A stretch of 64,000 bases of DNA from an uncultured Psychroserpens sp. (GTDB taxonomy: Bacteria > Bacteroidota > Bacteroidia > Flavobacteriales > Flavobacteriaceae). The notes beneath the pieces were generated by a model. That model was given only the letters and a program-made list of their open reading frames with translations, was not told the DNA's origin and searched no databases. A program made the translations under genes and the position numbers. Positions 43,880-62,569 of the stretch are shown piece by piece (the first letter of the stretch is position 1; the number at the start of each line of letters is the position of its first letter). Location of the stretch: positions 124,001 to 188,000 of the forward strand of contig NZ_CANMVN010000010.1 in the NCBI RefSeq assembly GCF_947501425.1, read 5' to 3'.

Positions 43880-45108
43880 TGAAACTCAAAATTATCTACT
43901 TCCATATTCTTGTATTGACATGCGTATTATCTCATGATCACATTTCAGATCGTAGAGAAGACAACACCTTTTCTGATATAAAATTGCTAACAGACAAAAG
44001 TGTATTTCAAGCTGGCGAACCTATAACGCTTCAGTTTTCATCTACAAACAATTCTATTGCGCCACAGCTGTACTGTACTAACAGTCATGGATCAACACTA
44101 TTAGAACCTCTAAAAAAAGGGACTCTGATAGATTATAAACTACCAGATTATATGACTCGTAAAATAGGCGTGTTGCATTGGAGACTTTTAAACAACAATT
44201 CCTTAATTCGTGGATCAATAGAAATCGTTTCAAAAAAACAAGTGGCTCACATGGAAACTTATATTGGACCACCTAGTATAGAGGCTGGCGGAACGGATTA
44301 CACGATGCTAGTGGTTATTCCCACAGATAGCTTAGATAATCCTTTACCAGACAATACAACAGTAGTAACAAAACACCAGTTCTTGACAAAAATATCTACC
44401 GATACTGTTAAAACAAGACATCTCATTGCTTACAAAAACATTAATTCTGAAATTAAAAGTGGACGGATGTTAGTGTCTTCCGAAAGTCATAATACCAATT
44501 CTAAAGAATTCACAATTAATGTACTTCCATCAATACCCAAAGGTTTTACAATTTCGGCTCAACGACCTCATGACTATGCTGACGGAAATCAACAAACCGT
44601 TTTTTCAACTTCTGTTTTAAAAGATAGCTATGGCAACGTGGTTAGTGATGGCACCTTTGTGAGTTTTTTTATAACCACAAATAATGGAAACATACTGAAA
44701 AGCTACGGTAAAACCATTAAAGGTGTTGCTGAAGCAAGAATGATTCATCCAGATCATCAATCGCAATGGAATGTCCAAGCTTACGTAACTGGTATGGCAG
44801 AAAGTAATACAATAACTTTAACCTATAAACAAGTCTTTAAAGAATTCAACGTGGAGTTTTCAGATAATAATAGAACGATTACTGTAGGTCCGCTACAAAG
44901 CTTTATGAAACAAATGGCACCTGATGGATTAGAGATAAAGCTTTACATCTACAAGAATAATGAACTTCTAGAACAACGCATTAAATTCTCGGTTGATGGT
45001 TTTGCTCATTTCAAATTAAAACCAAATATTTTAGAAAATGACACCTATGATTTTAAAATTAAAACTGCTGGTATTGAACAATCTTTTAATTCAAAAACAC
45101 TATGGTAA
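43879..45108 (+). CDS. Exported Ig-like/invasin-like protein
   Basis: 409 residues with an N-terminal signal peptide (~18 residues, no clear lipobox). The remainder looks like three or four beta-sandwich domains; the segment ~225-315 (TVFSTSVLKDSYGNVVSDGTFVSF) resembles bacterial Ig-like (Big-1/invasin) domains. No catalytic motif. It is translationally coupled on both sides, with a 1-bp overlap upstream and a 7-bp overlap downstream, so it probably works in a complex with the membrane protein and the GH5-like protein, perhaps holding or guiding a glycan chain in the periplasm. Confidence 0.7.
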   Translation: MKLKIIYFHILVLTCVLSHDHISDRREDNTFSDIKLLTDKSVFQAGEPITLQFSSTNNSIAPQLYCTNSHGSTLLEPLKKGTLIDYKLPDYMTRKIGVLHWRLLNNNSLIRGSIEIVSKKQVAHMETYIGPPSIEAGGTDYTMLVVIPTDSLDNPLPDNTTVVTKHQFLTKISTDTVKTRHLIAYKNINSEIKSGRMLVSSESHNTNSKEFTINVLPSIPKGFTISAQRPHDYADGNQQTVFSTSVLKDSYGNVVSDGTFVSFFITTNNGNILKSYGKTIKGVAEARMIHPDHQSQWNVQAYVTGMAESNTITLTYKQVFKEFNVEFSDNNRTITVGPLQSFMKQMAPDGLEIKLYIYKNNELLEQRIKFSVDGFAHFKLKPNILENDTYDFKIKTAGIEQSFNSKTLW

Positions 45109-46619: not shown

Positions 46620-47829
46620 ATGGTTCTAAATCTTTTTCATTAGAAACCATTTTACAGCTTTTTATGCTGTTAAATACGTTCAAGTACATCTCTGTTATTG
46701 TAGACATTGGAAAGGCTGTAGCTGCTTTATAATTGGCCTTACCTAAAGCTATTCTATAATCAGTATTAGTAACAATAGATGCAATTGCAGTTGCTAAACT
46801 TGTAACAGAAGTAGGATCAAAGAATTGGCCTTGATAACCTTCTTCTTTGATTAGTAATGCTAAATCACCAATATCTGGCATAACAACGGCCTTACCGTAA
46901 CTACCAGCCTGATGTAAAACACCTGAGCTTCCGGTTGTTGATGTATATGGAAACACAACAACTGCACTCTCATTAAACAGCTTTGGCACTTCAGTTTCTT
47001 CAACATAACCCGTAAATCGTATTTGAGGTATGTGCTTATATTTTTCTTTGACGCTTGCTAAATAACCTGGTACATTTGGATTATCAGTTCCTGCAATTAC
47101 AATTTCTAAATTCAATCCAGTCGAAGCTCTAACAAGCGCGACAGCTTCTATCATGGATTCTACTTTTTTATAGGTTCCAAATTTACCAAAGGTCATGATC
47201 TGCAATGGTCCGTTGGGAATTGTATAATCTGGTTTTTCCAGACCTATTTCAAATGTTCCATGTGGAATTAATGTTACATTATTCGCCTTATACTTCTCTT
47301 GTAAAATTGTAACGTATTTCTGCATAGTCACTGCAACAGTATCAGCTTGTAAGATCAGCCTAGTTAAGCAGGATCCAATAAATCCATAGACGTTTTGCAT
47401 CAATGCATTGGAGGTAAATCCTGCAGACCCTAAATCAACTTCTTCTAAAATATTGTGAAGCAAGACGATATTAGGAATACCTTTAAGTTTACAAATCAAA
47501 GGCATTAATAGTCCTAATGCAGCAGCTACCTTTTTATCACCAAACTTCATAAATTGAAGGTTGAAGAGAACTGCATCTGGTTTCATCTGATGTAGAGCTT
47601 TAGTCATATGAAAAACATTTGTATAGCTATTGAATTTCCAACATTCTCTCACAGTTATTTTACAACCGTTTTCAGTAAAATTAATGTCTTTATTACCTTC
47701 GGTCTTATCGGTTAGCAAGATTAGTTCAGTAATAGATTCTTTTTGTCTAAAATGTTTGACTAGATGGTATGCATATTCATTTAAAGTGACTTTACTCGGT
47801 GGATATGCTGTTACTATTGCTAATTTCAT
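46597..47829 (-). CDS. GT4 glycosyltransferase
   Basis: 410 residues, cytosolic, GT-B fold. The N-terminal Rossmann domain (~1-200) begins KLAIVTAYPPSKV. The C-terminal domain holds TFGKFGTYKKVE, the nucleotide-sugar part VVFPYTSTTGSSGVLHQAGSYGK and the final crossing helix. Members transfer sugars from NDP-donors to growing chains; PelF is also GT4. It has its own transcription start region with repeat pair B, 76 bp upstream. The neighbouring flippase and barrel exporter suggest it builds the exported polymer; its sugar donor cannot be read from sequence. Confidence 0.85.
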   Translation of the reverse strand: MKLAIVTAYPPSKVTLNEYAYHLVKHFRQKESITELILLTDKTEGNKDINFTENGCKITVRECWKFNSYTNVFHMTKALHQMKPDAVLFNLQFMKFGDKKVAAALGLLMPLICKLKGIPNIVLLHNILEEVDLGSAGFTSNALMQNVYGFIGSCLTRLILQADTVAVTMQKYVTILQEKYKANNVTLIPHGTFEIGLEKPDYTIPNGPLQIMTFGKFGTYKKVESMIEAVALVRASTGLNLEIVIAGTDNPNVPGYLASVKEKYKHIPQIRFTGYVEETEVPKLFNESAVVVFPYTSTTGSSGVLHQAGSYGKAVVMPDIGDLALLIKEEGYQGQFFDPTSVTSLATAIASIVTNTDYRIALGKANYKAATAFPMSTITEMYLNVFNSIKSCKMVSNEKDLEPSTVQKYI

Positions 47830-47904
47830 ATACTGGATTTTTACTATTTTTAATTATTAATTTCATTGTAAATTTGCACTATAAAACTCAGTATAATTGA
47901 CAAC

Positions 47905-47938
47905 TGTAGACCGAATGCTGTTTACTGTAGATGAAAGG
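47905..47938 (-). promoter_or_regulatory. LytTR-type site B upstream of GT4
   Basis: ACTGTAGA occurs twice, 21 bp apart (47903 and 47924); the second full half-site is TGTAGATGAAAGG. It starts 76 bp before the GT4 start, in the same orientation as the other sites. No TANNTTTG is found at the expected 49-bp position (the minus strand reads TAATTAAA there). Confidence 0.6.
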
Positions 47939-47959: not shown

Positions 47960-49207
47960 TTAAGCCTTTTTCAAAATAGAATCAAAAATGAAGTATCCTA
48001 GTTGAAATACAAGAAGTAGTATCATTGCTGCAATTTGCATTTGTACTACTTGCTCTAAACTTTCATGCCATACAATAACCAAAGCCATTTGAAGTAAGCC
48101 AAAAAGGCCAGAAAACAGCACAGGAATATAACGATCTAAGGATAAATAGTAATAGGCAAAAATATTTGAGATTGCAAACAAACCTGTGGCTAAGGCATAT
48201 TTCCAAAGTAATGGTGCCATGGCTAAATAGCTTTTCCCAAACAGCAATGTAATTCCTAATTCAGGGCATATGGCACATGCACAAATAATTACCAAAGCAA
48301 TTACTGCGATGTATCCAATGTATTTAAACAAAATTGGTGCAGTTGACTTACCGTCTTTTTTAAGCTGAACAACTTTAGGAAGTAAGAGCATTACAAACAT
48401 CCAGGCCAGAAAGTACACAATGCGTCCAACAAGAGCCAATGACGCATAGAGACCAGCCTCATAAGATGGAAAATAATGTTTAACCAATAGAATATCACTA
48501 TTATTTATAATAATTTGAGTGAGTTCGTAAAACGCTGTGATTACAAAAAAACGTCGAATTTGTCTTGAGTATTCAAACTCTAAATCAAATGATGTTTTAA
48601 ACTGAAAGCGTCTGAACTTAAACGGTATTAAACCAAAACCAAATGAGATCAAGATTCCAATAGCTATGACGATTGATGATTGTATTTGAAATAAAAATAT
48701 TAATCCGAGTGTAAAGATCAACCGGCTTAACATTTCAGCTTGATAAGTGATAGATAAAGATTTAAAAGCGCTCTGACCTTGATATACTCCTCGGTTTACA
48801 CTCATTAAAAAATACAAAGGGACACCAATTCCGAAAATGACAAACATACCAGAAGAAGAGGTGTGAAACCATTGTTGTAACTGACTTGAAAATCCAATAA
48901 TCAAGAGTCCGAAAGCAACACCTATAAGGCATGCATTTCTATAGATATTAGAAATGAATTTTGTAAAAACATGATGCTCGAAAATAACTGAGAATTTTGC
49001 TGTAACCAATTGAAAGGTCATGGCTACAAAGGACAATACTAATAAAAATGTTATTAAAACTGCAGCATCAGCAAACTGCTCAGGTCCTAAAAGACGACCT
49101 AAAATAAGGTTGTATCCATAGTTACCTGCATTAACCAACAAAACACTCAACATAAACAGTTGTTCTGGTGTCAACATTTTCGATTTAATTACTGAAATTA
49201 CCTGCAT
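47960..49207 (-). CDS. Polysaccharide flippase (MATE/Wzx/PelG-like)
   Basis: 415 residues from ATG 49207. An upstream in-frame ATG at 49279 would overlap the STAS gene by 46 bp and add a charged, non-membrane extension, so I reject it. Twelve or more membrane segments in the MOP-superfamily pattern. The family moves lipid-linked or nascent glycans across the inner membrane, and PelG is a related example. It follows the STAS gene by 26 bp in one operon, which suggests that STAS controls the flippase or associated synthase. Confidence 0.85.
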   Translation of the reverse strand: MQVISVIKSKMLTPEQLFMLSVLLVNAGNYGYNLILGRLLGPEQFADAAVLITFLLVLSFVAMTFQLVTAKFSVIFEHHVFTKFISNIYRNACLIGVAFGLLIIGFSSQLQQWFHTSSSGMFVIFGIGVPLYFLMSVNRGVYQGQSAFKSLSITYQAEMLSRLIFTLGLIFLFQIQSSIVIAIGILISFGFGLIPFKFRRFQFKTSFDLEFEYSRQIRRFFVITAFYELTQIIINNSDILLVKHYFPSYEAGLYASLALVGRIVYFLAWMFVMLLLPKVVQLKKDGKSTAPILFKYIGYIAVIALVIICACAICPELGITLLFGKSYLAMAPLLWKYALATGLFAISNIFAYYYLSLDRYIPVLFSGLFGLLQMALVIVWHESLEQVVQMQIAAMILLLVFQLGYFIFDSILKKA

Positions 49208-49233
49208 GTTTTTTTTATTTAGTAGCTTTTCTA

Positions 49234-49512
49234 TTATGCTGCAAAAGAACTTTTGTAATCCTCGTATATATCTTTGCATCCATTTCCAATAATTGAAAAC
49301 ACATGATTACTTTTAAATGCAGTTGCCATTAAAATTTTAAAAGCTTCTACTCCCGAAGAATCAATAGAACTAACATGATCGATATCTACTGTGATATCTT
49401 TTACCGTATTAATGATGTGTTCAAAATGACTAATAAATGATCTGGTTGTTGTTGCATTTAAACTTCCGTGTAATTGAAAAGTTCCGTTTTCTTCTAAAAT
49501 TTGTAGTGCCAT
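49234..49512 (-). CDS. STAS-domain protein with phosphorylatable serine
   Basis: 92 residues, a single SpoIIAA-like STAS domain. The motif DSSG (51-54) keeps Ser53, the position phosphorylated in anti-anti-sigma factors. It is a paralogue of the DRYG protein at 36541-36819. It is co-transcribed with the flippase and preceded by repeat pair C. It probably regulates export or synthesis through a phospho-switch with a kinase encoded elsewhere. Confidence 0.85.
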   Translation of the reverse strand: MALQILEENGTFQLHGSLNATTTRSFISHFEHIINTVKDITVDIDHVSSIDSSGVEAFKILMATAFKSNHVFSIIGNGCKDIYEDYKSSFAA

Positions 49513-49587
49513 AATCTTGATTTTTTAAGGGTTATGCGTTTTAATTTGACGCTAATATCCGAACATATTCCACGTATGCCCTTTTGA

Positions 49588-49621
49588 TTTCGACGGATGG
49601 CAGTTTGCTGTAGATGAATGA
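49588..49621 (-). promoter_or_regulatory. LytTR-type site C between STAS-flippase operon and TPR-barrel gene
   Basis: Half-sites TTTCGACGGATGG (from 49588) and TGTAGATGAATGA (from 49609), 21 bp apart. The site begins 76 bp before the STAS ATG (49512) and ends 45 bp before the divergent exporter ATG (49666), so both units may respond. No exact -7 box is seen at 49 bp. Confidence 0.65.
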
Positions 49622-49665: not shown

Positions 49666-51729
49666 ATGAAGACTTTAAAATCATTGATCTATCTTACTTT
49701 TTTGTTCATTAGCATATCTGTTAGTTCACAACAAATGCAGAAAGGTTTTAACTATCTGGAAACAGGACAATATGAACAAGCCCAATTATTTTTTGAAAAC
49801 ATTCTCAAAGAGTTTCCAAATAATAAAACAGCACGTTTATGCTACGGAAGAGCCATTGGTCTAAACGGAAATCCAGAAAAAGCAAATGCTGTTTTCACTA
49901 AACTTCTCAATGAATATCCAACCGATTTTGAGGTGAAGTTAAATTATGGCGAATCGCTGTTATGGAATGAACAATTCTCTGAAGCGAAAACATATTATAA
50001 TGCCTTAGTAGAGGAAGCTCCAAAAAATTTCTCTGCACTATTGGGATACGCAAACACATTATCTAACTTAAAAGCATATGATATGGCGTTATTATATGTA
50101 AACAGCGCTCTAGAAGTCTCACCAGGAAACACCAATGCTCTCATCTCAAAAAAATATATCAACTTAGGGTTTGCTTATTCTAAACAACAAGCGCAACAAT
50201 ACGATGAAGCCGAAACCTTATTAATTCAAAATCTGGAATTTCTAGGAGAGGACAAAGAGACCTTAATGAATCTTGCCAATTTATATTTAATTACAAATTC
50301 ATTAGATTTTGCTGAAAGCACCTACAACAGATTGGCTAAAAACCCATCAAACCAGATAGAAGCCATAAATGGATTGGCGCTAGTAGCGCACCTTCACGGA
50401 AAAGAGAAAAAGGCATTGCAACTAAGTACTAATGCATATAAGCTCTTAGATTCTGATACTTCGGAAAAAGTTACACAACAAACCACTGAACGCTACATAC
50501 AGGCTTTAATATGGAATAAAACTTTTAACAAAGCCGAGAGACTTATTGAAGCTTTAATGCTCAAGCAACCTAATGAAAATTGGATTCTCGCATTAAGAGC
50601 AACATTAAATATTTACAAAAGTAACTTTAAAAAAAGTCTGGAAGATTACAATAGAATACTTGTAAATGATAGCACTTCATTTGATGGAAATCTCGGTAAG
50701 GCTAATGCTTTGAAAGCCTTAGGCTATTATGATGATGCCTACACTTCTGCAGAAAACACATTAAAGTTTTACACCAATCAAAAGGATGCAATGAATTTTA
50801 TAACTGTCTTAAATGAGAATTTTTCACCTGTCTTGGATTCCAGAACATCCTATACATTTGATAATGGCGATAATAAAGCTTTTTCATTTGGTACGAAGGT
50901 ATCATTTCCAATAACAACAAAATTCAAACTCCTTGGAAGTTATAACTACAGAACTACAAACAATGCGGTAACTAAGATTAAAGCTAACTCTAATGATATA
51001 TCTGTGGGGCTTTCTTACCAACTCCTAAATACAATTACATTTAAAGGTACAGCAGGATTAACTTCAGCTAGATCAGAAAACAACGATTTCACACAACTCT
51101 TAACAGATATATCGTTTCATATCAAACCTTTTAAAATGCAAACCTTAGATTTAGGATACAAACGCGATATTCAAAGTTTTAATGCTGATCTCTTAGCACG
51201 AGAGATTGTTCAGAATAATTTTTATGCCAATTACAACCTAAGTTCAAATTATAATCTTGGTTGGTTTACACAATATATGTATACATCACAAAACGACGAA
51301 AACACAAGACATTTACTATTTACCTCATTATATTATAACCTACTATCAAAACCGTCACTAAAACTCGGACTCAACTATCAATACATTACATTTAAAGAGC
51401 AGGTTCCTAATATTTACTTTAGTCCAGAATCATTTCAAGCAGGAGAAGTCTTTTTAAATTGGATCAAAGATGTAAATACAGCCAAACCAAAAACATGGTT
51501 CTATGAGTTAACGGCTGCAACAGGCATACAAATTATAGATGATGGCACACAGCAGAGCACCTATAGATTTCAGGGTAAATTAGGCTATAAGATTTCAGAT
51601 CGAAGTATGTTTAATCTCTTTGGAGCACGCAGCAATATTGCCTCTGCTACAGCTGCTGGTTTTACTTTTACAGAAATTGGATTACGATTTAAGTATCGAT
51701 TTGGAGATCGGAATATTTTTAAGAAGTAG
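49666..51729 (+). CDS. TPR protein with C-terminal outer-membrane barrel (polysaccharide exporter-like)
   Basis: 687 residues. Signal peptide to ~SVSSQ (22). About ten TPR-type helical repeats (~25-385) precede a beta-barrel (~395-687) ending in the aromatic-rich GLRFKYRFGDRNIF, similar to the YaiO family. TPR plus barrel is the layout of the outer-membrane exporters BcsC, PgaA and PelB, although the barrel here is of the size used by ~12-14 strands. It probably guides the polymer through the periplasm and outer membrane. It is divergent from STAS-flippase with site C between. Confidence 0.82.
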   Translation: MKTLKSLIYLTFLFISISVSSQQMQKGFNYLETGQYEQAQLFFENILKEFPNNKTARLCYGRAIGLNGNPEKANAVFTKLLNEYPTDFEVKLNYGESLLWNEQFSEAKTYYNALVEEAPKNFSALLGYANTLSNLKAYDMALLYVNSALEVSPGNTNALISKKYINLGFAYSKQQAQQYDEAETLLIQNLEFLGEDKETLMNLANLYLITNSLDFAESTYNRLAKNPSNQIEAINGLALVAHLHGKEKKALQLSTNAYKLLDSDTSEKVTQQTTERYIQALIWNKTFNKAERLIEALMLKQPNENWILALRATLNIYKSNFKKSLEDYNRILVNDSTSFDGNLGKANALKALGYYDDAYTSAENTLKFYTNQKDAMNFITVLNENFSPVLDSRTSYTFDNGDNKAFSFGTKVSFPITTKFKLLGSYNYRTTNNAVTKIKANSNDISVGLSYQLLNTITFKGTAGLTSARSENNDFTQLLTDISFHIKPFKMQTLDLGYKRDIQSFNADLLAREIVQNNFYANYNLSSNYNLGWFTQYMYTSQNDENTRHLLFTSLYYNLLSKPSLKLGLNYQYITFKEQVPNIYFSPESFQAGEVFLNWIKDVNTAKPKTWFYELTAATGIQIIDDGTQQSTYRFQGKLGYKISDRSMFNLFGARSNIASATAAGFTFTEIGLRFKYRFGDRNIFKK

Positions 51730-52753: not shown

Positions 52754-55351
52754 TTATCTAATTATTAATTTTAGGGGATTATATACATTTTGTCGACTTA
52801 TAATTTTACAGAAATACATTCCAGCATCCAGTTGATTTCTATTCAGTCGTATTTCATTTGTTCCAAACTGAGCTCTATAACTTGTTTGGTATACTATTTT
52901 ACCCAACTGATCAAAGACTACTAATTGTAATATTTCAGTTTGATTTGCCTTAAACTGTATTGTTGTATAAGTTGACATCGGATTTGGAATCGCAGAAACG
53001 CGTAAAGTTTGTACCTCCAATTCTTCAACAGATAAGGTGTCTTGAGAAAAACGCAAGTTTTCTAGAGTCATTTCTTTGGTGGTGGTTGTACCATCTAAAC
53101 TCACCATTGTAAACACCACAGAAACCACATCATCTAAATAAGGATCAACCCCATTGATCGAATCAAAACTAATTATCGGTAATACATAATCTTCATTAAC
53201 ATTAGATAATGTGATTGTCTTGTGGTATTGTTCTTCCCAATTTGAAATACCTTGCTTTACTAAAGTTACTTCTAAAGTTCCAGTACCTTTAGCACTAAAT
53301 TTCAAACTGTTATAATCTGTAAGATCAACAGGCTTAAATCTTGGTGTTAAAGCTCTGTATGCTGCTACGTAACTATTGGTTGTGGCTTTTAATACAATAT
53401 TACGCTCCAGCGGAAAATCAGTAATGTCATAAACAAATTCGTTTGGCAATACTGCATAAGTATCTATGGTTGTATCTACCTGAGAATCATCAATTCCCCA
53501 GGGACCATCAGACATAAACAAATCATCAGGTGTTGCGATCCCGTCACCAATTCTGAATCCGATATCAAAGAGATGTCCAGTTTCTACTTGTAGGTTAGTG
53601 ATGTAATTTTCGTTAAGATCTATGGTAGAATTTAGGGCTCCAAATTCGCTTGTTTCGGTAATTCTAAAACCAGCGTCAAAGGATACGTTTTCGCTAAAAT
53701 TGGTATTAATGATTTGTAGGTCGAGGGCTCCATTAATATATTTTCCTTTTCTAACGAAAACTGAGGGAGGGATTGAATTATTATAGCTGGAAATAGGCTT
53801 TTGTACGTCTAGAAGATTCAATACTTCTTGTCCAAGTGCATAGAGATCATCTACAGCATTAGTCCATATCTGAAAGTTATAATACGTTACATTTGCTTCA
53901 TATTGATCAAGATTCCAATGGCTCTCTATGGCGAAGTTCTCTTCATTATTAATCACTTTTGCCGACAAACTCAATACAAACTCATAAGTACCATCAGTGT
54001 TTTTTATAATCGACTTGATAAATGCTTGTCCGTTAATATCAATTGTATTAACAGAGATTAATTCTGCTCCAAGTAGTCTATCGCATATGTATTTGGTGTG
54101 CTCATAAACGCCATTTTCTGTTTTTAAAGCCATAATAGTCGCTACTGGTGTATTATTCTCTAAATAATCAACTGCATATATTTCGGTAGCATTTGTGATA
54201 TTGAGTAAATCTACAGGAGTAGATTCAATAACTTCATCTTCGTTGATAACATCTAATGGAATAAAATCTTCAAGCGTAAATTCAGAATTGATAGTTCTTT
54301 GTAAATATGTACTTGATTTTGTGAGACGTCTTGCTGTATTTCTGTTAAACACATACCCTGTTTTTATACGATTGAAATTTCGCTTATTGATTTGCTCAGA
54401 TAATCTATTATTACTTTCTAAACCACCCTGATTCCCTCCACTAGTTGGAGGTGTGATTAAAGCACAGTCACCATATCCAGAACATGAAGGATCTTGGCAG
54501 TCGATGAGTCCATCACCATCATCATCAATGCCATTATCGCAAATTTCTTGCAATACTGGAGCTGTAGGACAGCGTGCGCCATCATTACTAGAACTGGAAG
54601 GACCAAAAGCAAATAAATTAGAATCCATACTACTATTAGCCACTAGTGTTTGTACATTTTGAATGACATAAATAGTTCCGGTTTGATTGGCAGACACATA
54701 AAATCTACCTTCGGCGTCAAAATAAACTGCACCATAGGTATAATTTAAACCAGACAGAATTGGCACCTCTCCTATTGCCTGAACATTTCCGTTTGAAGCA
54801 TCTATTCGATATAAAATATTTGTATTTTTTTCTACTGTATATAACATTCCGTCAACTGCATTAAACGCCCAATCATGAATGTTTATGTTTTGAGATAATA
54901 CAGCCGTTTCCTGATGCTCAGTATAATTAACTGACTCTGGGTCAAGATCAATTTTATAATATGTTGTCCCACCACCTTTAAGGTAATATATACCCTGTGG
55001 ACTCACATCACCTACGTACCTGTTATTGGTAGGTAATTGGTCAATGTAGTATGTGGTAGTTGTAAAATTTTTTCCAATTCTAACAATAGTTTTAGCAGGA
55101 GAAGTTAAAGATCCCCAAATAAATCCATCAGCTGGATTGTATGCTGCGGCATTTACATTTCCTTGGGTGATATTTTCAGCTACCTGATATGAACTTCCAG
55201 AAGCTAGGTCAATAGCATAAACATCATTGTATTGAAATAGATATGCGTTATAGTCACAATTAAAAGGAATGTCTTGAGCATCAGAAAAGAAGCTCATTAA
55301 GATGGTTCCAAAAACGGTTAACCAAATTTTAGAATAGTAGTGTTTATACAT
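52754..55351 (-). CDS. Large T9SS-secreted surface protein with propeller-like and carbohydrate-binding-like domains
   Basis: 865 residues. Signal peptide to ~SDAQ (26). The first ~240 mature residues form a beta-propeller-like domain of repeated strand motifs. Next is a short calcium-binding segment (CDNGIDDDGDGLIDCQDPSC, with DxDxDG-type acidic ligands), a middle region with no clear match, a beta-sandwich near 650-780 resembling carbohydrate-binding modules (DYNSLKFSAKGTGTLEVTLV), and a T9SS type A sorting domain (IPNPMSTYTTIQF to the end). It is preceded by site D and an exact -7 box, so it is probably induced with the glycan locus and may act as a matrix or adhesion protein. Confidence 0.8.
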   Translation of the reverse strand: MYKHYYSKIWLTVFGTILMSFFSDAQDIPFNCDYNAYLFQYNDVYAIDLASGSSYQVAENITQGNVNAAAYNPADGFIWGSLTSPAKTIVRIGKNFTTTTYYIDQLPTNNRYVGDVSPQGIYYLKGGGTTYYKIDLDPESVNYTEHQETAVLSQNINIHDWAFNAVDGMLYTVEKNTNILYRIDASNGNVQAIGEVPILSGLNYTYGAVYFDAEGRFYVSANQTGTIYVIQNVQTLVANSSMDSNLFAFGPSSSSNDGARCPTAPVLQEICDNGIDDDGDGLIDCQDPSCSGYGDCALITPPTSGGNQGGLESNNRLSEQINKRNFNRIKTGYVFNRNTARRLTKSSTYLQRTINSEFTLEDFIPLDVINEDEVIESTPVDLLNITNATEIYAVDYLENNTPVATIMALKTENGVYEHTKYICDRLLGAELISVNTIDINGQAFIKSIIKNTDGTYEFVLSLSAKVINNEENFAIESHWNLDQYEANVTYYNFQIWTNAVDDLYALGQEVLNLLDVQKPISSYNNSIPPSVFVRKGKYINGALDLQIINTNFSENVSFDAGFRITETSEFGALNSTIDLNENYITNLQVETGHLFDIGFRIGDGIATPDDLFMSDGPWGIDDSQVDTTIDTYAVLPNEFVYDITDFPLERNIVLKATTNSYVAAYRALTPRFKPVDLTDYNSLKFSAKGTGTLEVTLVKQGISNWEEQYHKTITLSNVNEDYVLPIISFDSINGVDPYLDDVVSVVFTMVSLDGTTTTKEMTLENLRFSQDTLSVEELEVQTLRVSAIPNPMSTYTTIQFKANQTEILQLVVFDQLGKIVYQTSYRAQFGTNEIRLNRNQLDAGMYFCKIISRQNVYNPLKLIIR

Positions 55352-55376: not shown

Positions 55377-55466
55377 CAAAACTAGGAGCTTAAACTGTTT
55401 ATTTTTTAAAATTTCGCTTAGTTAAATCCAGATGAAGTTAAATGACACTTAGCTATCGATGAATGG
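55377..55466 (-). promoter_or_regulatory. LytTR-type site D and promoter of the T9SS protein gene
   Basis: Half-sites TGAAGTTAAATGA (55433) and TATCGATGAATGG (55454), 21 bp apart. TAGTTTTG (55377-55384 on the minus strand) is an exact -7 box 49 bp from the proximal half-site and 25 bp before the ATG at 55351. Confidence 0.75.
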
Positions 55467-55738: not shown

Positions 55739-55828
55739 CAAAAATAGACACCTATCGGCTAGTAATAGATAATTTTCGTTAGATCGAAAATCAAGAGCGA
55801 TAGAATACAATTAAGTATCGATGAATGG
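55739..55828 (-). promoter_or_regulatory. LytTR-type site F with promoter
   Basis: Half-sites GAGCGATAGAATA (55795) and TATCGATGAATGG (55816), 21 bp apart. TATTTTTG at 55739-55746 on the minus strand is an exact -7 box at exactly 49 bp. No gene follows for 390 bp, only a terminator. Confidence 0.65.
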
Positions 55829-55830
55829 TT

Positions 55831-56541
55831 TTAGAGTAAATTAAGACGCTTCATTAACTCTGGTCGATTTGAACGACTAACAGGAATAACGTCTTTTTTG
55901 ATAAGCACACTATTGTCTTCAATGTCAATAATTTTGTTGACATTGATAATAAATGAACGATGGACTTTTAAAAATAAATCGTTTGGTAATTTCTCTTCAA
56001 TTTTTTTCAGGGTGGAGTGCACTGTATAGTTTTGACTCTCAGTTTTTACATGAATGTAATCCCCTTTAGCTTCCACCAAATAAATACTTGGAATATCAAT
56101 TTTGATGAGACGCCTGTCAATATTCACATACAAATCATTTCCTGAAGTAGTTTCAACTTTTTCAGATGAATCTAAACCAGTTGCAGTGACTGTTTTCGCG
56201 TTAGCTTTTTTTATAGCTTTTTGAAAACGTTCAAGTGTGATAGGCTTTACCAAATAATCAACGATACAATCATACTCAAAAGCCTGAATAGCAAAATTTG
56301 AATCTGACGTTGTTAAAATAATCTTTGGAGGGTTTTTGAGTGTTTCGATGAAATCAAAACCAGTAAAATCTGGCATATGAATATCTAAAAAAATTAGATC
56401 AATCTCATTTTGATTTAAATATTTAATGGCTTGTATTGCATTTGGAAATTCCTCTAAAACATTAAGATGATCTACGTTTGAGCACAATTGAGCAATTATA
56501 GCTCTGGCTGTAGCTTCATCATCAATAATAATACAATTCAT
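55831..56541 (-). CDS. LytTR-family response regulator
   Basis: 236 residues. Receiver domain (~1-118): IIIDDEA acidic pair, phospho-acceptor D53 in LIFLDIHMPD, and K in VKPIT. A linker leads to a LytTR DNA-binding domain (~138-236; SIYLVEAKGDYIHVKT, FLKVHRSFIINVNKI). LytTR regulators bind pairs of ~9-bp direct repeats about 21 bp apart, which matches the eight repeat pairs found only in this block. It is the last gene of the signalling operon, 11 bp after Hpt, so the likely route is kinases to Hpt to this regulator. Confidence 0.93.
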   Translation of the reverse strand: MNCIIIDDEATARAIIAQLCSNVDHLNVLEEFPNAIQAIKYLNQNEIDLIFLDIHMPDFTGFDFIETLKNPPKIILTTSDSNFAIQAFEYDCIVDYLVKPITLERFQKAIKKANAKTVTATGLDSSEKVETTSGNDLYVNIDRRLIKIDIPSIYLVEAKGDYIHVKTESQNYTVHSTLKKIEEKLPNDLFLKVHRSFIINVNKIIDIEDNSVLIKKDVIPVSRSNRPELMKRLNLL

Positions 56542-56552
56542 GTAATACTTAA

Positions 56553-56870
56553 TTATAACTGTTGCAAATAATTAGTTATGATGATTAATATGGATTCGAA
56601 TTCATCTTGAAGTGTTGTTCTATCTTCTAATAAATTGTTTTCGAATGTAACTGCAGTCTCATAACTCTTCTCGAGGCCTAAAATACTAATTTTATGTTTA
56701 AGTTTATGAACATTCTCAGCTGCAAGTTTATAATTTTTGGCAGTTATGTTCTCATAATAGATTTTTTTCTCCTCTGGAAATTCGCCTTTAATGATGTCTA
56801 TGAGTTTTTGTTCAAAACTCTTATCACCTCCAGACATACTGTGAATATAAGATAGATTAGGTTGCTCCAT
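56553..56870 (-). CDS. Hpt-domain phosphotransfer protein
   Basis: 105 residues, a single four-helix Hpt domain. The motif NVHKLKHKISILGLE has phospho-acceptor H55 followed by the Lys and the LG of the family pattern. It should relay phosphate between the kinases/receiver and the LytTR regulator. Its start overlaps the kinase stop upstream by 1 bp. Confidence 0.88.
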   Translation of the reverse strand: MEQPNLSYIHSMSGGDKSFEQKLIDIIKGEFPEEKKIYYENITAKNYKLAAENVHKLKHKISILGLEKSYETAVTFENNLLEDRTTLQDEFESILIIITNYLQQL

Positions 56871-58021
56871 TAATGCTTTTTTAAGGTAAAATAAAAGGTT
56901 GTGCCTTCATTAAGTTTTGATATTAGCCATATATTACCACCATACAAATTGACTATTTTTTTTACTATAGATAAGCCAATACCTGTAGATGACATATTAC
57001 TTTCCAGAGATTCAAAAGTCTTGAAAATCTTATCGAAGTATACATTATCTATGCCTTTGCCATTATCTGAAATATAAAATTCCCAAAATCCATCTTTATC
57101 ATTGGCTCCAATAGAGATTGTCCCTATAGGTTTATCATTGTATAGTATTGCATTATCAATGAGGTTTTGAAATAACTGCTGTAATCTATATTTATCTCCT
57201 TTGATTATTGGTAATTCATGAGTTGTAATAGTGATATGATTAGGGACTTGAATGATTTTTAAAATATCCTCAATAAGTGTATTAACATCAACATCGTAAG
57301 TTTCAATTTGATTTTTTGCAATTGTTGAGTACTCTAATATCCCATTGATTAAGGTATCCATTTTTTCAACACTATTTCTAATTAAGTGCAATTGTTGTTT
57401 CCCTTGTTTGTCAAACTTTTCTTTATAGTCTTCTTCTAACCATGAGGTTAATGTATCAATACTCCTTAGCGGCGATTTTAAATCATGTGATACCATATGA
57501 GCATAATCACTCAATTCTTGATTTCTTGATTCAAGATTATTTAACAATTGTTGTTGTTCACTAAACGCTTTACAAGCTTTTAGACCTACAGAGAACTTAT
57601 TGATAACAGGCTGTAATTGCAGTAAGTCTTTCGTTTTTAAATTATCTTTTTTAGAAAATAGAAACAAAAAACCCTGTTCAGCTAGACTGAAAATTGCTAC
57701 TGTACCATTTTGAATATCAATTGGTGATATATCTTCTATAATTGAATTAGAATCAATAATCTTAGACTCTTGAATTGAATTGAGAAGCTCACTAACTATA
57801 GGGTTAGGGTTATGATTAATCTCTTGTCCTAAAGGAATAGAATAGCGAGATGTTATTTGGTTCTCATTGTACTCAAGGATCCAGGCTGCATTTAGATTTT
57901 TTCGTTTCAGAATTAACTTAAGAAACACATCGCAACTCTCCTTATAGTTTAACGATTTACCAATAGCCATCGAAAACTCGTAGAGTTGCAAGATATCTGA
58001 TATGTGGTTTTCAATCTTCAT
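56870..58021 (-). CDS. Soluble GAF-like histidine kinase
   Basis: 383 residues with no membrane segment. N-terminal GAF-like region (~1-150), a helical linker, the dimerisation domain with YAHMVSHDLKSPL (phospho-acceptor H179), and a HATPase domain (~265-383) with NLIDNAILYND, DNGKGID and GIGLSIVKK. It is closely related to the PAS kinase of the same operon in its catalytic half. It lies between the FIST protein (adjacent, 0 bp) and Hpt (1-bp overlap). The FIST protein is the likely sensor partner, as NosP proteins pair with a neighbouring kinase. Confidence 0.9.
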   Translation of the reverse strand: MKIENHISDILQLYEFSMAIGKSLNYKESCDVFLKLILKRKNLNAAWILEYNENQITSRYSIPLGQEINHNPNPIVSELLNSIQESKIIDSNSIIEDISPIDIQNGTVAIFSLAEQGFLFLFSKKDNLKTKDLLQLQPVINKFSVGLKACKAFSEQQQLLNNLESRNQELSDYAHMVSHDLKSPLRSIDTLTSWLEEDYKEKFDKQGKQQLHLIRNSVEKMDTLINGILEYSTIAKNQIETYDVDVNTLIEDILKIIQVPNHITITTHELPIIKGDKYRLQQLFQNLIDNAILYNDKPIGTISIGANDKDGFWEFYISDNGKGIDNVYFDKIFKTFESLESNMSSTGIGLSIVKKIVNLYGGNIWLISKLNEGTTFYFTLKKH

Positions 58022-59119
58022 TTATTCAAATAATCCTACAACAACTGTTTTATTATAAAAATCTAAAAAACCATCACCATAAGAAGATATTTCACCTAAA
58101 GTTAATGCACCTCCTATTGAGACGTCTGGATATTTACGTTTTATGGTTTGCGTTATCGCTGTTAACTCCTTATGAAAACTATCTTCCAAAAACAAAATTC
58201 GAGAGATACAATCTATAATTATAGCTTTTCTTGGGTTTTGTGCCTGGTTAACACTTTCTTGAGCAGCCATTTCAGCGGCATTGATAAGTGACTCTTGGTT
58301 ACCATTAAGAATATCAACAAGTGTATTATCTTCTAATTCACCAACACAGATAAGCTCTCCTTTTTCATTAACCATTAATGGATCTCTAACAATACATTCG
58401 GCATTTTCTTTTACAATACCAAAAGGATATCCTTTAGCAATATCAAAGAAATTATTATCGGTAAATACTTTTTGAGAATGCGCTTCAACAACCTCTTTAT
58501 ATACTTGAAATGGATTTTTCCAATTGATTTCCTTAATAACGTTACCTTCTGCTTTGGTAACAATAAACGGACCATCAACTTTGTTCCATCCATGACGCAC
58601 TCCAATTTTAGAACTCATCCGCATGACACAACCCACAGCCGCATCCTGGAAAAACCCATCATTGTTAAAAACACATGGGTTTTGCTCTAATGACAAGCTA
58701 CCAGCTCCACCGCCAAAATAATTAGTTTGCATTCCGTAGTGTTCATATAATTCGCTTAAATAATGAGAAATATTAGATGTTAACCCATCTACATAGGTGA
58801 ATAAACTATACTCATGATTATTATCAAATGACATATTTGGAACCTGGTAATTTTTTTTACTTATATCTTTAATTAAAAACAAAGATTCTACATCATTAAG
58901 GGTATTAATGACAATCCCCTTTTCTAGTATGGTATTGCCGTGAATCACTTTAGGAAACAGACCACCTATGAAAGTGACCTTAGCGTCATTAAGTTTAGAG
59001 ATTAATTCATCTATATTGATCTCAGTATGCTCACCAAGAGAAATTAATGCACTATTGTCTTTGACATGATTTGAAATTGCACTAACAATCTCTTCTATAT
59101 TTGTACTTGTAATTAACAT
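58022..59119 (-). CDS. FIST-domain sensor protein (NosP-like)
   Basis: 365 residues, cytosolic. FIST_N (~20-215, with YFGGGAGSLSL and GVRHGWNKVDGPFIVTKAEG) and FIST_C (~220-345; YPFGI, GGALTLGEISS) domains cover the protein. FIST proteins include NosP, haem-binding nitric-oxide sensors that control co-encoded kinases. The operon context, two kinases and an H-NOX gene, supports a haem/NO role, but FIST domains may also bind other small ligands, and I cannot prove the haem site from sequence. Confidence 0.88.
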   Translation of the reverse strand: MLITSTNIEEIVSAISNHVKDNSALISLGEHTEINIDELISKLNDAKVTFIGGLFPKVIHGNTILEKGIVINTLNDVESLFLIKDISKKNYQVPNMSFDNNHEYSLFTYVDGLTSNISHYLSELYEHYGMQTNYFGGGAGSLSLEQNPCVFNNDGFFQDAAVGCVMRMSSKIGVRHGWNKVDGPFIVTKAEGNVIKEINWKNPFQVYKEVVEAHSQKVFTDNNFFDIAKGYPFGIVKENAECIVRDPLMVNEKGELICVGELEDNTLVDILNGNQESLINAAEMAAQESVNQAQNPRKAIIIDCISRILFLEDSFHKELTAITQTIKRKYPDVSIGGALTLGEISSYGDGFLDFYNKTVVVGLFE

Positions 59120-59120
59120 A

Positions 59121-61079
59121 CTATTTTTTTAGAGTAAAATAAAAAGTTGATCCTTTTTGGGGTTCACTCTCTACCCAAATATTGCCATCATGGAGATTGA
59201 CAATCTTTTTTACGATTGAGAGTCCTATTCCTGTTGAATCTTTACTTTTATTAAGTGAATGAAATATTTTAAATATTTTTTGATGGTACTGTTTCTCAAT
59301 ACCAATTCCATTATCTTTTATTGAAAATTGATAGTGTTTTGATTTTGTCGAAACATCAATCTCTATCAAACCTTTATCCTTATCACAAAATTTAACTGCA
59401 TTGCTGATAAGGTTTTGAAACACCTGCTGTAACTTAATTGCATCTCCACTTAAAGTAGGTAGTCTGTTCAATACGTTAATCTGAATATGATCAGGAACAT
59501 AAATCATATTTAGAAGGTCATTGACCAATATATTGGTATCAACATTAGTTGTTTCAACATGTTCAGCACCAACACTAGAATAGTTTAACACATCAGAAAT
59601 TAGCTGTTCCATTTTTTCTAAAGTGGTTTCAATATGTTCAAGATTCTTAACACTAGCATCATCTAATTTGTCCTTGTTATCCTCTTTTAACCAACTCACT
59701 AGAGCATCGATACTCCGTAGTGGTGATTTGAGATCGTGAGACACAATGTGTGCATATTCTTGCAATTCATTATTACTTTTTTCCAGCTTTTGCAGTAATT
59801 TTTCTTTTTGAAGTTCTAAACTCTTCAAATCGGTAATATCTAGATGAATTCCAATAGAGCCAACTACATTTCCTGCTAGATCAAAATTAGGAGCACCACT
59901 AATTAGCCAGTGCCTTATTTCTCCTGACTTAATTTTCACTTCTAACTCATAGGAATTTGACTCACCTTTTAGACGTTTTTTATTTTCAATATCTATAACA
60001 TCTTCATGATTATCAAATTGAAATACCTCACCTCCTTTTTTACCAATTAATTCGGCTTCGGAATAACCAGACATCTCTGAAAAACTTTGATTAATCATTA
60101 AAATTTCATCATCGTTGTTAACCTCAACCAATCCAAGATTCATATTCGCTATAATACTGCTATATTTTTCCTTTTGTGCTTCAAGGCTCCTACGATATGT
60201 ACGATTTAAAGTAACATCTGTAAATGTCCATAAAAAACCCTTAGATTTTTCTCCAATAGTTATAGGCATATAATCACGCTCTAGGATTTTTCCATCCAAC
60301 ATTTCTAATTCATCTCCAATAACAGGCTTTTTTTCTTTGTCTATATTTTGCATTCGATCAATGAAAGCCTCAGGGTTTTTAAATAATAATTTATTTTGTT
60401 CTGAAGCTGAACTACAATCCATACCAATCAAACTATCAGGTTCGACATTAAGATTAAAAAGCTCACAAAACTTTTTATTTGTTAGGACAATATTTCGGTT
60501 TTCATCCTCTAAAACAATTCCACTATCCAGATTTAATATGAGTGTAGCTAATCTGTTTTCAGATTCTATTAATTTTTCTTCAGAAGCTTTATCTGCTGTA
60601 ATATCTCTTACGATTCCTTGGGCTGCAATAGGAATTTGGTCTTTATCTATAACCATACTTGCATTGATATGTACCCACTTTACCTCGCCTGATTTTGTAT
60701 AAATTCTAGCCTCGTAGTTTTTGAAATAACCTTGAGCCTGTAAATCCATGTATGAGGACATAGCATACTGATAGTCTTCTTTATAAATTAGATCTTTTAC
60801 ATTTACAGACTCTTTATCGATATCGTAACCAAAAAGCCGAGTCGCTGCATCGTTAAATTTCAACACATTACCGTTGACATCCATAACCACGTAAGCATCG
60901 ACAATATTTTCAAAAACGCCTTGTAATTGTGAGGATTTCTCATCGAGAAGTTTTTCTAATTTTTGTGAAGTATTATAGAGTTCTCTAGATTTTTCTTCGA
61001 GAATTTTTTCGGCTGCTTTTCTAGCAGATTTCTCGCGCTCTAGTGCTCGTTTTAATATGTCAAGTTGGTCTTGACTCAT
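59121..61079 (-). CDS. Soluble multi-PAS histidine kinase (H-NOX-associated)
   Basis: 652 residues with no membrane segment. Coiled coil (~5-52), three PAS domains (~53-165, 175-290, 305-420), a second coiled coil, the phospho-acceptor domain YAHIVSHDLKSPL (H448) and a HATPase domain (~535-652; NLISNAVKF, DNGIGIE, STGIGLSIVKK). It has no receiver of its own. Its start overlaps the H-NOX stop by 1 bp, so H-NOX is the obvious regulator: NO-bound H-NOX usually inhibits its kinase. Output probably goes to the CheY-like receiver and/or the Hpt-LytTR route. Confidence 0.9.
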   Translation of the reverse strand: MSQDQLDILKRALEREKSARKAAEKILEEKSRELYNTSQKLEKLLDEKSSQLQGVFENIVDAYVVMDVNGNVLKFNDAATRLFGYDIDKESVNVKDLIYKEDYQYAMSSYMDLQAQGYFKNYEARIYTKSGEVKWVHINASMVIDKDQIPIAAQGIVRDITADKASEEKLIESENRLATLILNLDSGIVLEDENRNIVLTNKKFCELFNLNVEPDSLIGMDCSSASEQNKLLFKNPEAFIDRMQNIDKEKKPVIGDELEMLDGKILERDYMPITIGEKSKGFLWTFTDVTLNRTYRRSLEAQKEKYSSIIANMNLGLVEVNNDDEILMINQSFSEMSGYSEAELIGKKGGEVFQFDNHEDVIDIENKKRLKGESNSYELEVKIKSGEIRHWLISGAPNFDLAGNVVGSIGIHLDITDLKSLELQKEKLLQKLEKSNNELQEYAHIVSHDLKSPLRSIDALVSWLKEDNKDKLDDASVKNLEHIETTLEKMEQLISDVLNYSSVGAEHVETTNVDTNILVNDLLNMIYVPDHIQINVLNRLPTLSGDAIKLQQVFQNLISNAVKFCDKDKGLIEIDVSTKSKHYQFSIKDNGIGIEKQYHQKIFKIFHSLNKSKDSTGIGLSIVKKIVNLHDGNIWVESEPQKGSTFYFTLKK

Positions 61080-61618
61080 TAATTCTTTTTAATTATAAAA
61101 CGTACCTCAGTACCATCTTCTTTTATCTTCTCTAAAACAATATCTGCTGTTGAATTAAAGTGTTCAAATGTTTTGTTCATCAAACCTAAACCAAAATGAT
61201 GCATTGCTCTATTAGATTTATAATCCATTACCAGTGAGTTCTCTGTTTTTTCAATAACTTCAAATGTTGGTAATTCGGCATCAGGATATATTTTTCTCAC
61301 TTCAACATGGATGTGATTTTCTATAGATGACAACATTTCTATTGGATCAGTATACGTGGCCAATAAACCAGGATAGCTATCTTCCAGCACACTAAAGAAA
61401 TGTTCTGCATACACCAATAACAAATTATCAATGCTAATTTCTGTTTTTGCACTTAAATGTTGCAATAACTGAAGCATCTCAGAGAATTTATAAGTTCCAA
61501 CTGATGTATAGACACCTTCAGAGTCAAGATCAGAATTTGAAATGATATGATCAACCATTTCAAGTCCAAACTTATCTTCTACTAACTCTAAAAATTCTGT
61601 AAAAACAATCCCTTTCAT
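61079..61618 (-). CDS. H-NOX haem nitric-oxide sensor
   Basis: 179 residues, the usual size of stand-alone bacterial H-NOX. It starts MKGIVF; proximal haem ligand H104 (IHVEVRKIYP) and the porphyrin-binding YxSxR motif (Y133, S135, R137) fit Thermoanaerobacter H-NOX H102, Y131, S133 and R135 with a constant offset of 2. The distal Tyr140 of that O2-binding protein is Phe142 here, so NO-selective sensing is expected. It is coupled to both neighbours by 1-bp TAATG overlaps. Confidence 0.93.
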   Translation of the reverse strand: MKGIVFTEFLELVEDKFGLEMVDHIISNSDLDSEGVYTSVGTYKFSEMLQLLQHLSAKTEISIDNLLLVYAEHFFSVLEDSYPGLLATYTDPIEMLSSIENHIHVEVRKIYPDAELPTFEVIEKTENSLVMDYKSNRAMHHFGLGLMNKTFEHFNSTADIVLEKIKEDGTEVRFIIKKN

Positions 61619-62031
61619 TATACTTTTATTAATTCATTAATACTCCAATAAGCAAATAGACTATCGATTTTTCTAACATAATCTTCATATTTTAAAGGTT
61701 TCAAAATGTATCCAGCAACGCCTATTTTATAACACTCCAAAAGGTCTTTTTGATTATTAGATGTGGTGAGTATTATTGTTGGTATATACTTTAATGTGTT
61801 ATCATTCTTTAATATACTCAAAAACTCAATTCCGTTTATTTTGGGCATGTTTAAATCTAATAAAATTATGTCTGGTAACACCTCTTTTTTTTGTAAAATA
61901 TCCAATGCATCTTCACCATTATTAGCTTCAACAATTTGATGTTTAAGTTCAAGTGATGAGATGGCTCTACTTAATTTCATGACTTCTATAGCGTCATCTT
62001 CAATTAATAAAACTTTTAATAGATTACTCAT
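61618..62031 (-). CDS. CheY-like single-domain response regulator
   Basis: 137 residues from ATG 62031. A longer frame uses a TTG at 62061 that lies in the -7 box region, so I reject it. Receiver of the Rcp1 type: LLIEDD acidic pair, phospho-acceptor D59 in ILLDLNMPK, TTS, and LKPLK with the conserved Lys. No output domain. It is the first gene of the signalling operon and overlaps the H-NOX start by 1 bp. It may compete for phosphate or interact with the receiver-GT2 protein pathway. Confidence 0.9.
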   Translation of the reverse strand: MSNLLKVLLIEDDAIEVMKLSRAISSLELKHQIVEANNGEDALDILQKKEVLPDIILLDLNMPKINGIEFLSILKNDNTLKYIPTIILTTSNNQKDLLECYKIGVAGYILKPLKYEDYVRKIDSLFAYWSINELIKV

Positions 62032-62058: not shown

Positions 62059-62147
62059 CAAAGTATACCAATTATAAAAAATGATAGATATATTTCGTCT
62101 AACTCGAATTTAGTGTCGTTGAATAACGCTTAAGTGTCGACGAATGG
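62059..62147 (-). promoter_or_regulatory. LytTR-type site G and promoter of the signalling operon
   Basis: Half-sites TGTCGTTGAATAA (62114) and TGTCGACGAATGG (62135), 21 bp apart. The minus strand has TATACTTTG (62059-62067), a -7-like box with one extra spacer base, 47 bp away and 28 bp before the ATG at 62031. This implies autoregulation by the LytTR protein encoded at the operon end. Confidence 0.65.
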
Positions 62148-62159
62148 TAATTGAAGAAT

Positions 62160-62459
62160 TTACTTTTTTTGATAGTTGATTAACTCTAGAGTATTCATTT
62201 GAGAATCGTATTTTATTCTCTCTAATTCCTGTAAAAAGCTAAGAGAATAGCTATCCTCTTTACGTTTATCAATATGCATTTCAAAATAGCTTATAAATTC
62301 TAATTGCTTTAAACTCGCTTGTAATTGTTTTGTTATTTTCATGGTTTCATCTTGGGGTTCATTCAATTTTGCTTTATATAACTCATCATCATGAACTCTG
62401 TCTGAAAACAAATTGAATACTCTTAATAATAGATTTTGGGTCGAGGGAAACATGGACAT
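62160..62459 (-). CDS. Small hypothetical protein in the LytTR regulon
   Basis: 99 residues, soluble, predicted mostly helical and highly charged (Lys and Glu rich, with several Gln). There is no signal peptide and no recognised domain. The start at 62459 is favoured because an exact -7 box (62480-62487) and site H lie at the standard distances upstream. It lies just before the signalling operon but ends upstream of site G, so it is a separate transcription unit. The shared site suggests a role in NO signalling or glycan control. Confidence 0.7.
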   Translation of the reverse strand: MSMFPSTQNLLLRVFNLFSDRVHDDELYKAKLNEPQDETMKITKQLQASLKQLEFISYFEMHIDKRKEDSYSLSFLQELERIKYDSQMNTLELINYQKK

Positions 62460-62479: not shown

Positions 62480-62569
62480 CAAATGTATTATGACATTGTA
62501 TTCCTAATGAAAATATTCTATCGAAGAATTAATTTGATAGACGGATAGCAAATAAGTGTAGATGAATGA
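62480..62569 (-). promoter_or_regulatory. LytTR-type site H and promoter of the 99-residue gene
   Basis: Half-sites GATAGACGGATAG (62536) and TGTAGATGAATGA (62557), 21 bp apart; a further similar sequence TATCGAAGAATTA begins at 62519. TACATTTG (62480-62487, minus) is an exact -7 box at exactly 49 bp, 21 bp before the start codon. Confidence 0.75.

Follow-up and report, generated by a model that had tools for sequence, protein, structure and literature searches.

An operon in the genome of an uncultured Psychroserpens sp. raises the question of how two sensory proteins of different families, each followed by a histidine kinase, could serve a single output. The operon lies in a 64,000-nucleotide stretch of assembly GCF_947501425.1 (contig NZ_CANMVN010000010.1, positions 124,001 to 188,000), hereafter the window, to which all coordinates refer. 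It encodes a receiver protein, a putative nitric oxide (NO) sensor of the H-NOX family, a PAS kinase, a FIST-domain protein of a type that we call FIST-B, a second kinase, an Hpt phosphotransfer protein and a LytTR response regulator. On balance we think it probable that these genes specify a modular phosphorelay in which NO, acting through H-NOX, and a second signal, acting through FIST-B, would feed a shared trunk and so control matrix genes. The trunk would comprise the stand-alone receiver encoded by the first gene, the Hpt protein and the LytTR regulator, and the inputs would be pairs of a cytosolic sensor and a non-hybrid kinase, placed between receiver and Hpt.

Two sensor-kinase pairs in one operon

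All seven genes lie on the minus strand between 62031 and 55831 and overlap or are separated by gaps of at most 11 bases, as judged from open reading frame (ORF) coordinates. This confirms the initial annotation in its view of one unit with two sensor-kinase pairs and a common end in Hpt and LytTR. The first gene encodes the receiver (61618..62031; Response_reg, 4e-23), which carries D59 and K111 and starts at an ATG at 62031; the ORF list had a TTG at 62061. Described at first simply as CheY-like, the protein holds its place as one of the seven parts, and to this we add that it is likely to be the first phospho-acceptor of the relay. H-NOX (61079..61618; HNOB, 8e-39) and a PAS histidine kinase without a receiver (59121..61079; PAS, HisKA, HATPase_c) form the first pair. 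The second consists of FIST-B (58022..59119; FIST 100.1 bits, 2e-28; FIST_C 77.5 bits, 1e-21) and another non-hybrid histidine kinase (56870..58021; HisKA, HATPase_c). The operon closes with Hpt (56553..56870) and the putative DNA-binding output, the LytTR response regulator (55831..56541; LytTR 76 bits, 3e-21; Response_reg 68.8 bits), with its phospho-acceptor D53.

The HNOB domain of the window protein scores far above its curated cut-off (133.7 versus 25.5 bits). Among relatives, H104, which we take to be the proximal haem histidine, is kept in 107/108 sequences, and the positions of the YxSxR motif are conserved as Y133 (108/108), S135 (108/108) and R137 (100/108). The protein is identical at 150/179 residues (84%) to PDB 6bdd, the solved H-NOX of Kordia algicida (PMC7356049, cited like the other papers below from excerpts of its text). 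From these likenesses it is credible that the window's H-NOX binds haem and senses NO. The molecule field of 6bdd and 6bde gives this Kordia protein as an aldolase, a misleading annotation.

Sensor cassettes exchanged on a conserved trunk

In the window's family, Flavobacteriaceae, a Pfam profile search found HNOB in 145/397 genomes, and FIST matches occurred in 116/397. A synteny survey of the family, suggested with the initial annotation, took in 100 H-NOX loci; they come from 98 genomes, each standing for a different genus. These genera were taken from 104 with an H-NOX match; G112 and G327 (partial matches), G343, G359, G366 and G370 were left out, G135 and G140 contributed two loci each, and second matches of G160 and G076 were not included. 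Genes were labelled with models built on the window's relatives, which may assign distant kinases wrongly to the PAS or GAF type, so the counts refer to histidine kinases in general.

Receiver, H-NOX, kinase, Hpt and LytTR stand together in one cluster in 86 of the 100 loci, mostly overlapping or very closely spaced, and the arrangement in the window is therefore not a chance one. FIST is present in 51 loci, as FIST-A in 49 and FIST-B in 2. Two kinases accompany FIST in 49 of these 51 loci, and of the loci without it three have more than one, so FIST and the second kinase are gained and lost together. The full five-gene set is missing from 14 loci. In a phylum sample, HNOB was found in 27/395 genomes, and the complete seven-gene form recurs in another family of the same class (G544, locus L204). 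The operon of L113 is complete but has an ORF of 313 amino acids inserted between Hpt and LytTR.

The contents of the FIST slot vary. FIST-B occupies it in L076, L130, L133, L134 and L136–L140, and in L135, from a Winogradskyella sp., the order runs receiver, H-NOX, kinase, FIST-A, kinase, FIST-B, kinase, Hpt, LytTR. A FIST-B gene with a kinase lies 278 bases past a FIST-A operon in L141, and in L142 and L143 FIST-B lies near a kinase, the 21 kb examined containing no H-NOX. FIST-A with its kinase stands apart in G320 and also in G002 and G050, where the H-NOX operons (L035 and L050) are without FIST. The slot differs even among members of the window's genus, with FIST-B in the window, FIST-A in G045, G775 and G777, and no FIST in G778.

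The H-NOX cassette itself may be subject to exchange. In genus g127 (L214–L219), H-NOX scores only 52–72 bits, versus mostly 255–306 bits in the first set, and the scores of receiver, Hpt and LytTR stay high where these genes are present (L219 has neither Hpt nor LytTR). It looks as if the H-NOX cassette had been replaced in these operons and the trunk kept. The strongest argument for convergence of the inputs on a shared trunk is this constancy of the trunk while the sensor-kinase inputs are exchanged. The L214 kinase, the sole g127 kinase checked, carries an HNOBA domain, and an additional, third kinase gene precedes Hpt in L214 and L216.

Proposed order of phosphotransfer

Kinase, receiver, Hpt and final receiver are all present with their catalytic residues, Hpt being a weak sequence match with a predicted fold. 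D59 and K111 of the receiver are each kept in 105/105 relatives, D53 of the LytTR regulator in 99/99 and H55 of Hpt in 100/101. The label Hpt stands in part: the Pfam score stays below the cut-off (18.7 versus 24.6 bits), and the structure predicted for the protein (predicted local distance difference test score 95) finds HPt domains as its best PDB matches, with probability 1.00 and a best E-value of 0.02, none reaching 0.001. In this model the gene product has a four-helix HPt fold with a phospho-histidine.

Both kinases share the H-box HDLKSPLRSI and are identical at a fraction of 0.65 over 26 residues, and 12 FIST kinases from outside such operons differ there, with SHEIRTPL; the contrast rests on these 12, since two members of the comparison group of 14 were in fact the kinases of the window, wrongly labelled. 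The second of them had been described as a GAF kinase. It is a histidine kinase by its HisKA and HATPase domains, and a Pfam search found no GAF match in it even at an E-value of 5. Its predicted N-terminus has an alpha/beta layout that is GAF-like by eye, the fold-comparison rows covering mainly residues 153–383.

Evidence for the order of the relay comes from fusion proteins. Nine H-NOX-linked kinases from beyond the standard set were examined; four of them (L202, L203, L207, L208) are fused to a receiver and an Hpt domain, and in L208, a single locus from another Bacteroidota family, the gene next after the fusion encodes a LytTR regulator. In L208, the PAS part of the kinase (293 bits) and LytTR (256 bits) are clearly related to those of the operon, and the Hpt match is weak (18 bits). 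The arrangement in L208 supports the order kinase, receiver, Hpt, LytTR, and in view of the four fusions the window's receiver and Hpt, encoded by separate genes, most likely act as their fused counterparts do. The idea that the inputs converge on Hpt and LytTR, put forward in the initial annotation, thus gains from the swapping of cassettes, the shared H-box and the L208 fusion.

In the relay that we propose, H-NOX would control the PAS kinase in response to NO, and FIST-B would control the second kinase in response to a ligand of its own. Both kinases would phosphorylate D59 of the receiver, from which the phosphoryl group would pass to H55 of Hpt and on to D53 of the LytTR protein. By analogy with Vibrio, where H-NOX/HqsK and NosP/VpsS feed the Hpt protein LuxU and then LuxO (PMC6769237), NO-bound H-NOX probably inhibits its kinase. 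NO would thus reduce the phosphorylation of LytTR and alter matrix production. The sign is reversed for Legionella NosP, whose kinase NO activates.

Operator-like repeats

Upstream of the receiver gene, the sequence CATTCGTCGACACTTA is repeated at 21 bp and followed by a weaker third copy. In 1.6 Mb of locus sequence, 83 repeat pairs are spaced with a period of 21; for each of the other periods between 12 and 44 the count is five or fewer. A period of 21 bp agrees with LytTR geometry, as in AgrA. Upstream regions were chosen where the receiver scored well and enough upstream DNA was present, which gave 109 regions (the window, 92 of the 100 loci, eight of L133–L143 and eight of L181–L220). Sites of at least 14 bits occur in 97 of them, namely in each of the 81 used for training and in 16 of the other 28, versus 0/545 mononucleotide shuffles.

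A scan of the window with a matrix trained without it found seven sites of 16.7–47.7 bits, the best score in ten two-base block shuffles being 10.6 bits. All seven lie on the minus strand before minus-strand genes, two of them between divergent genes. The highest-scoring is the putative operator of the operon (62110..62146; 47.7 bits), with its two repeats at 21 bp and the weak third copy just downstream. Another lies before a 99-amino-acid ORF (62532..62568; 30.2 bits), and two precede the gene of a secreted protein, one distal (55791..55827; 16.7 bits) and one proximal (55429..55465; 20.6 bits). The remaining three lie between the STAS and flippase genes and a divergent TPR gene (49584..49620; 33.8 bits), before a family 4 glycosyltransferase gene (GT4; 47901..47937; 25.1 bits), and between a receiver-glycosyltransferase gene and a divergent gene for a 1029-amino-acid protein (40692..40728; 33.2 bits). 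Such a direct repeat of LytTR type with a period of 21 bp, standing before the operons and also before secreted-protein and exopolysaccharide-type genes, is the new observation here. The repeats are probably LytTR-type operators; phosphorylated LytTR protein would bind them before its own operon, giving feedback, and also before the secreted protein and several transcription units of the adjoining cluster.

A neighbouring exopolysaccharide-type cluster

Pfam matches between 37.9 and 55.4 kb include glycosyltransferases, a polysaccharide flippase, one TPR and one mannose-6-phosphate isomerase-like protein, together with a secreted protein bearing a type IX secretion system (T9SS) tail, and the region has the look of an exopolysaccharide-type cluster. 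Probable targets of the relay, all on the minus strand, are the 865-amino-acid T9SS-secreted protein (52754..55351; Por_Secre_tail, DUF6923), the STAS-domain protein (49234..49512; STAS, 30 bits), the polysaccharide flippase-like protein (47960..49279; Polysacc_synt_3), the GT4 glycosyltransferase of group 1 (46597..47829; Glyco_trans_1_4) and a receiver fused to a family 2 glycosyltransferase (receiver-GT2; 39412..40611; Response_reg, Glycos_transf_2). The 99-amino-acid ORF (62160..62459, minus strand), without a Pfam match at E 0.001, is a possible target, with an operator-like repeat of its own and relatives in several loci. The cluster further includes the TPR protein (49666..51729, plus strand; TPR models), a 505-amino-acid protein (45102..46619, plus strand) that is glycosidase-like below cut-off (Glyco_hydro_cc, 19.9 versus 21 bits), the 1029-amino-acid protein (40790..43879, plus strand; no Pfam match) and the mannose-6-phosphate isomerase-like protein (37922..38896, minus strand; PMI_typeI_cat, MPI_cupin_dom).

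Within the genus, the 1029-amino-acid protein is present in 6/9 genomes, all six of which have the relay trunk; H-NOX is absent from the three that do not encode the protein. Cluster and sites were mapped in the five of the six other than the window's own (the relay of G045 being in L033). Sites that reach 14 bits also recur in other genera, in the divergent region between TPR and flippase genes (16/29), before STAS (3/3), GT4 (7/10) and the 99-amino-acid ORF (3/3), and before the T9SS protein they were counted in 29/39 relatives, weak ones of 28–36% identity included. Two neighbours had no site of that strength, YjbR (0/23) and a 203-amino-acid protein (0/18). The receiver-GT2 protein, whose gene is preceded by a repeat, could also be a target that the relay controls directly by phosphorylation.

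The second sensor and alternative explanations

The initial annotation called the FIST protein NosP-like and saw in the operon two NO inputs, the FIST protein being a haem NO sensor and both kinases answering NO with different affinity or speed. NosP is indeed described as a haem NO sensor with a FIST domain (PMC12570481), FIST and FIST_C are both present in the window protein, its gene precedes a kinase gene as nosP precedes nahK, and nine of the 11 FIST-B loci found lie in or beside an H-NOX operon. Against this, the window protein scores 33.3 bits with the NosP model, the NCBIfam equivalog NF041558, whose cut-off is 450, and as a NosP it was rejected. FIST-A, the common FIST of these operons, also falls far below (53–55 bits), whereas NosP of Azospirillum, which served as positive control, and the Variovorax protein reach 500 and 466 bits; four other alphaproteobacterial FIST proteins score 338–397, below cut-off. 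FIST-A (377 amino acids) and FIST-B (365 amino acids in the window) are only 19–29% identical over the aligned stretch. A C-terminal histidine before an N-x-T motif, present in 6/6 NosP-like proteins aligned (two of them over the NosP cut-off) and kept in 50/50 FIST-A proteins, which speaks for the two-NO-sensor view, is replaced in FIST-B by Tyr or Phe (Tyr355 in the window protein; 86% of 14 FIST-B rows have Tyr), and a histidine near the end of FIST_N in 5/6 NosP-like proteins lies one column off His176 of FIST-B. The haem ligand residue of NosP was not found in the excerpts of the literature searched, and a sequence search for a solved FIST homologue gave one unconvincing match (E 0.31). 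An operon with H-NOX, FIST-A and FIST-B is more easily understood as reading different signals than as having three NO inputs, and L142 and L143 hold FIST-B and a kinase apart from any H-NOX in 21 kb. FIST-domain sensing has been described as poorly understood (PMC8846402). Nor are FIST ligands settled, since pairs of the NosP/ErcS type also adjoin alcohol-oxidation genes, as reported (PMC12997753) and as seen in loci that we examined. For these reasons, the score, the replaced histidine and the unsettled ligands, we do not classify the window protein as a NosP, and a second NO sensor in this operon seems to us unlikely. L152 and L153 have a NosP-like FIST, a response regulator and a PAS kinase adjoining alcohol-oxidation genes, which hints at a possible role of FIST-kinase pairs of this sort in alcohol metabolism.

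As another explanation, the stand-alone receiver might be a phosphate sink or a separate output, with the kinases reaching LytTR by another route; a single-domain receiver does stand beside Hnox2 and its kinase in Legionella without a known output (PMC11237717), and five of the 100 loci show only receiver, H-NOX and kinase without Hpt or LytTR in the cluster, one of these (L071) being truncated by the end of its contig. The fusion of receiver and Hpt to H-NOX kinases in four of nine cases, together with the five-gene set of most loci, makes such a bypass improbable. The repeats, in turn, might be bound by a regulator other than the operon's own LytTR protein, there being 13 LytTR genes in this genome and the repeats having been found by sequence only. 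Yet the ~3.3 kb surrounding each of the 12 remaining LytTR genes contains no site, and the two-copy pattern, allowing up to three mismatches, has four matches in this genome, all inside the window (a reversed control pattern has none). G774 and G776, of the same genus and without H-NOX, have no match to the pattern either, in a same-genus search that left out G267. With the 21-bp period also fitting LytTR, we consider another regulator a still poorer candidate than the bypass. That the seven genes are ordinary genomic neighbours without joint function, as adjacent genes may well be, hardly deserves credence given the clustering of the five genes across genera.

Several observations weigh against the modular phosphorelay that we favour. 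G773, of the same genus, keeps relay and sites with neither H-NOX nor FIST in its operon, and a divergent H-NOX lies elsewhere. The DHp domains of kinases from the same locus are no more alike than those from different loci (0.512 versus 0.518, 52 pairs), so there is no locus-specific covariation pointing to a shared partner. The operon upstreams that supplied the repeat consensus are also those used for its first count. Twelve of the 109 upstream regions have no site of at least 14 bits, L207 and L208 have no site anywhere and L219 has none above 11.2 bits. On the target side, 17 of 275 control ORFs of the same loci, a set that includes spurious ORFs, also reach 14 bits; sites are found directly before only 4/19 flippase genes, 1/2 receiver-GT2 genes and 0/1 relative of the 505-amino-acid protein. 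Exopolysaccharide genes are not always near, with TPR in 32/100, flippase in 20/100 and GT4 in 13/100 of the 12-kb loci, and the joint absence of relay and polysaccharide genes in three genomes of the genus could be a single regional loss.

A further step from the modular phosphorelay, which we offer tentatively and with less than even confidence, is that it acts as a hub. H-NOX, FIST-A and FIST-B cassettes would be exchangeable on the receiver-Hpt-LytTR trunk, which would directly control the adjacent exopolysaccharide locus without need of cyclic di-GMP (c-di-GMP). FIST-B would have departed from the haem and NO role of NosP, and the ligands of FIST-A and FIST-B might be other ones or overlap.

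Relation to known systems

In its logic the proposed relay resembles Spo0-type relays, in which several kinases act through one stand-alone receiver, one phosphotransferase and one DNA-binding regulator; the window has Hpt in place of Spo0B, LytTR in place of Spo0A, and a single operon with soluble sensors. In Shewanella, NosP also feeds HnoX/HnoK/HnoB, so that several NO inputs reach shared regulators, but the output there is c-di-GMP turnover and the genes are not known to lie in one operon. Common to that system and our proposal is the control of a kinase by H-NOX (PMC8846402). That NO sensors can feed an Hpt protein and a DNA-binding regulator is already known from Vibrio, where a cytosolic NO sensor controls a kinase without a sensory domain of its own and LuxU passes the signal to LuxO (PMC6769237). 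The Vibrio kinases are hybrid, LuxU is common to quorum sensing, and the H-NOX and NosP cases come from different species (PMC6769237), whereas the window has non-hybrid kinases, a receiver and Hpt of its own and a LytTR output, all in one operon. With Vibrio, and with Pseudomonas NosP/NahK feeding HptB and RsmA (PMC12997753), the statement in the initial annotation that known outputs run through c-di-GMP proves over-broad. The Legionella operon Hnox2-Lpg2458-Lpg2457 likewise joins H-NOX, a kinase and a single-domain receiver, but its three genes include no Hpt, LytTR or FIST and its downstream signal is given as unknown (PMC11237717). FIST near hnox is listed in group 1 of an H-NOX neighbourhood network; in the text available, section 10 names no Bacteroidota operon, and the terms Hpt and LytTR are absent from the main text (PMC8738867). 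In the open-licence literature we recognised no paper on a Bacteroidota H-NOX/LytTR operon, and found neither a single operon with swappable inputs nor the LytTR output, nor operators of the latter at a matrix cluster.

In the cited excerpts, control of biofilms by NO concerns Proteobacteria and runs largely through c-di-GMP. The relay suggests how common marine bacteria of the window's kind could convert NO into a biofilm decision and, if true, would be an NO-to-matrix pathway in Bacteroidota without need of c-di-GMP, testable through its named phospho-residues, defined operator and defined target genes. The swapping of cassettes offers a natural series (H-NOX only, with FIST-A, with FIST-B, with all three, and without H-NOX) in which one can ask how the relay integrates its inputs and what FIST domains sense.

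FIST genes also occur in runs. In L198 (G267, of the window's genus), four neighbouring FIST genes of ~380–397 amino acids are followed by a kinase, and groups of two to four neighbouring FIST matches are present in other genomes of the family.

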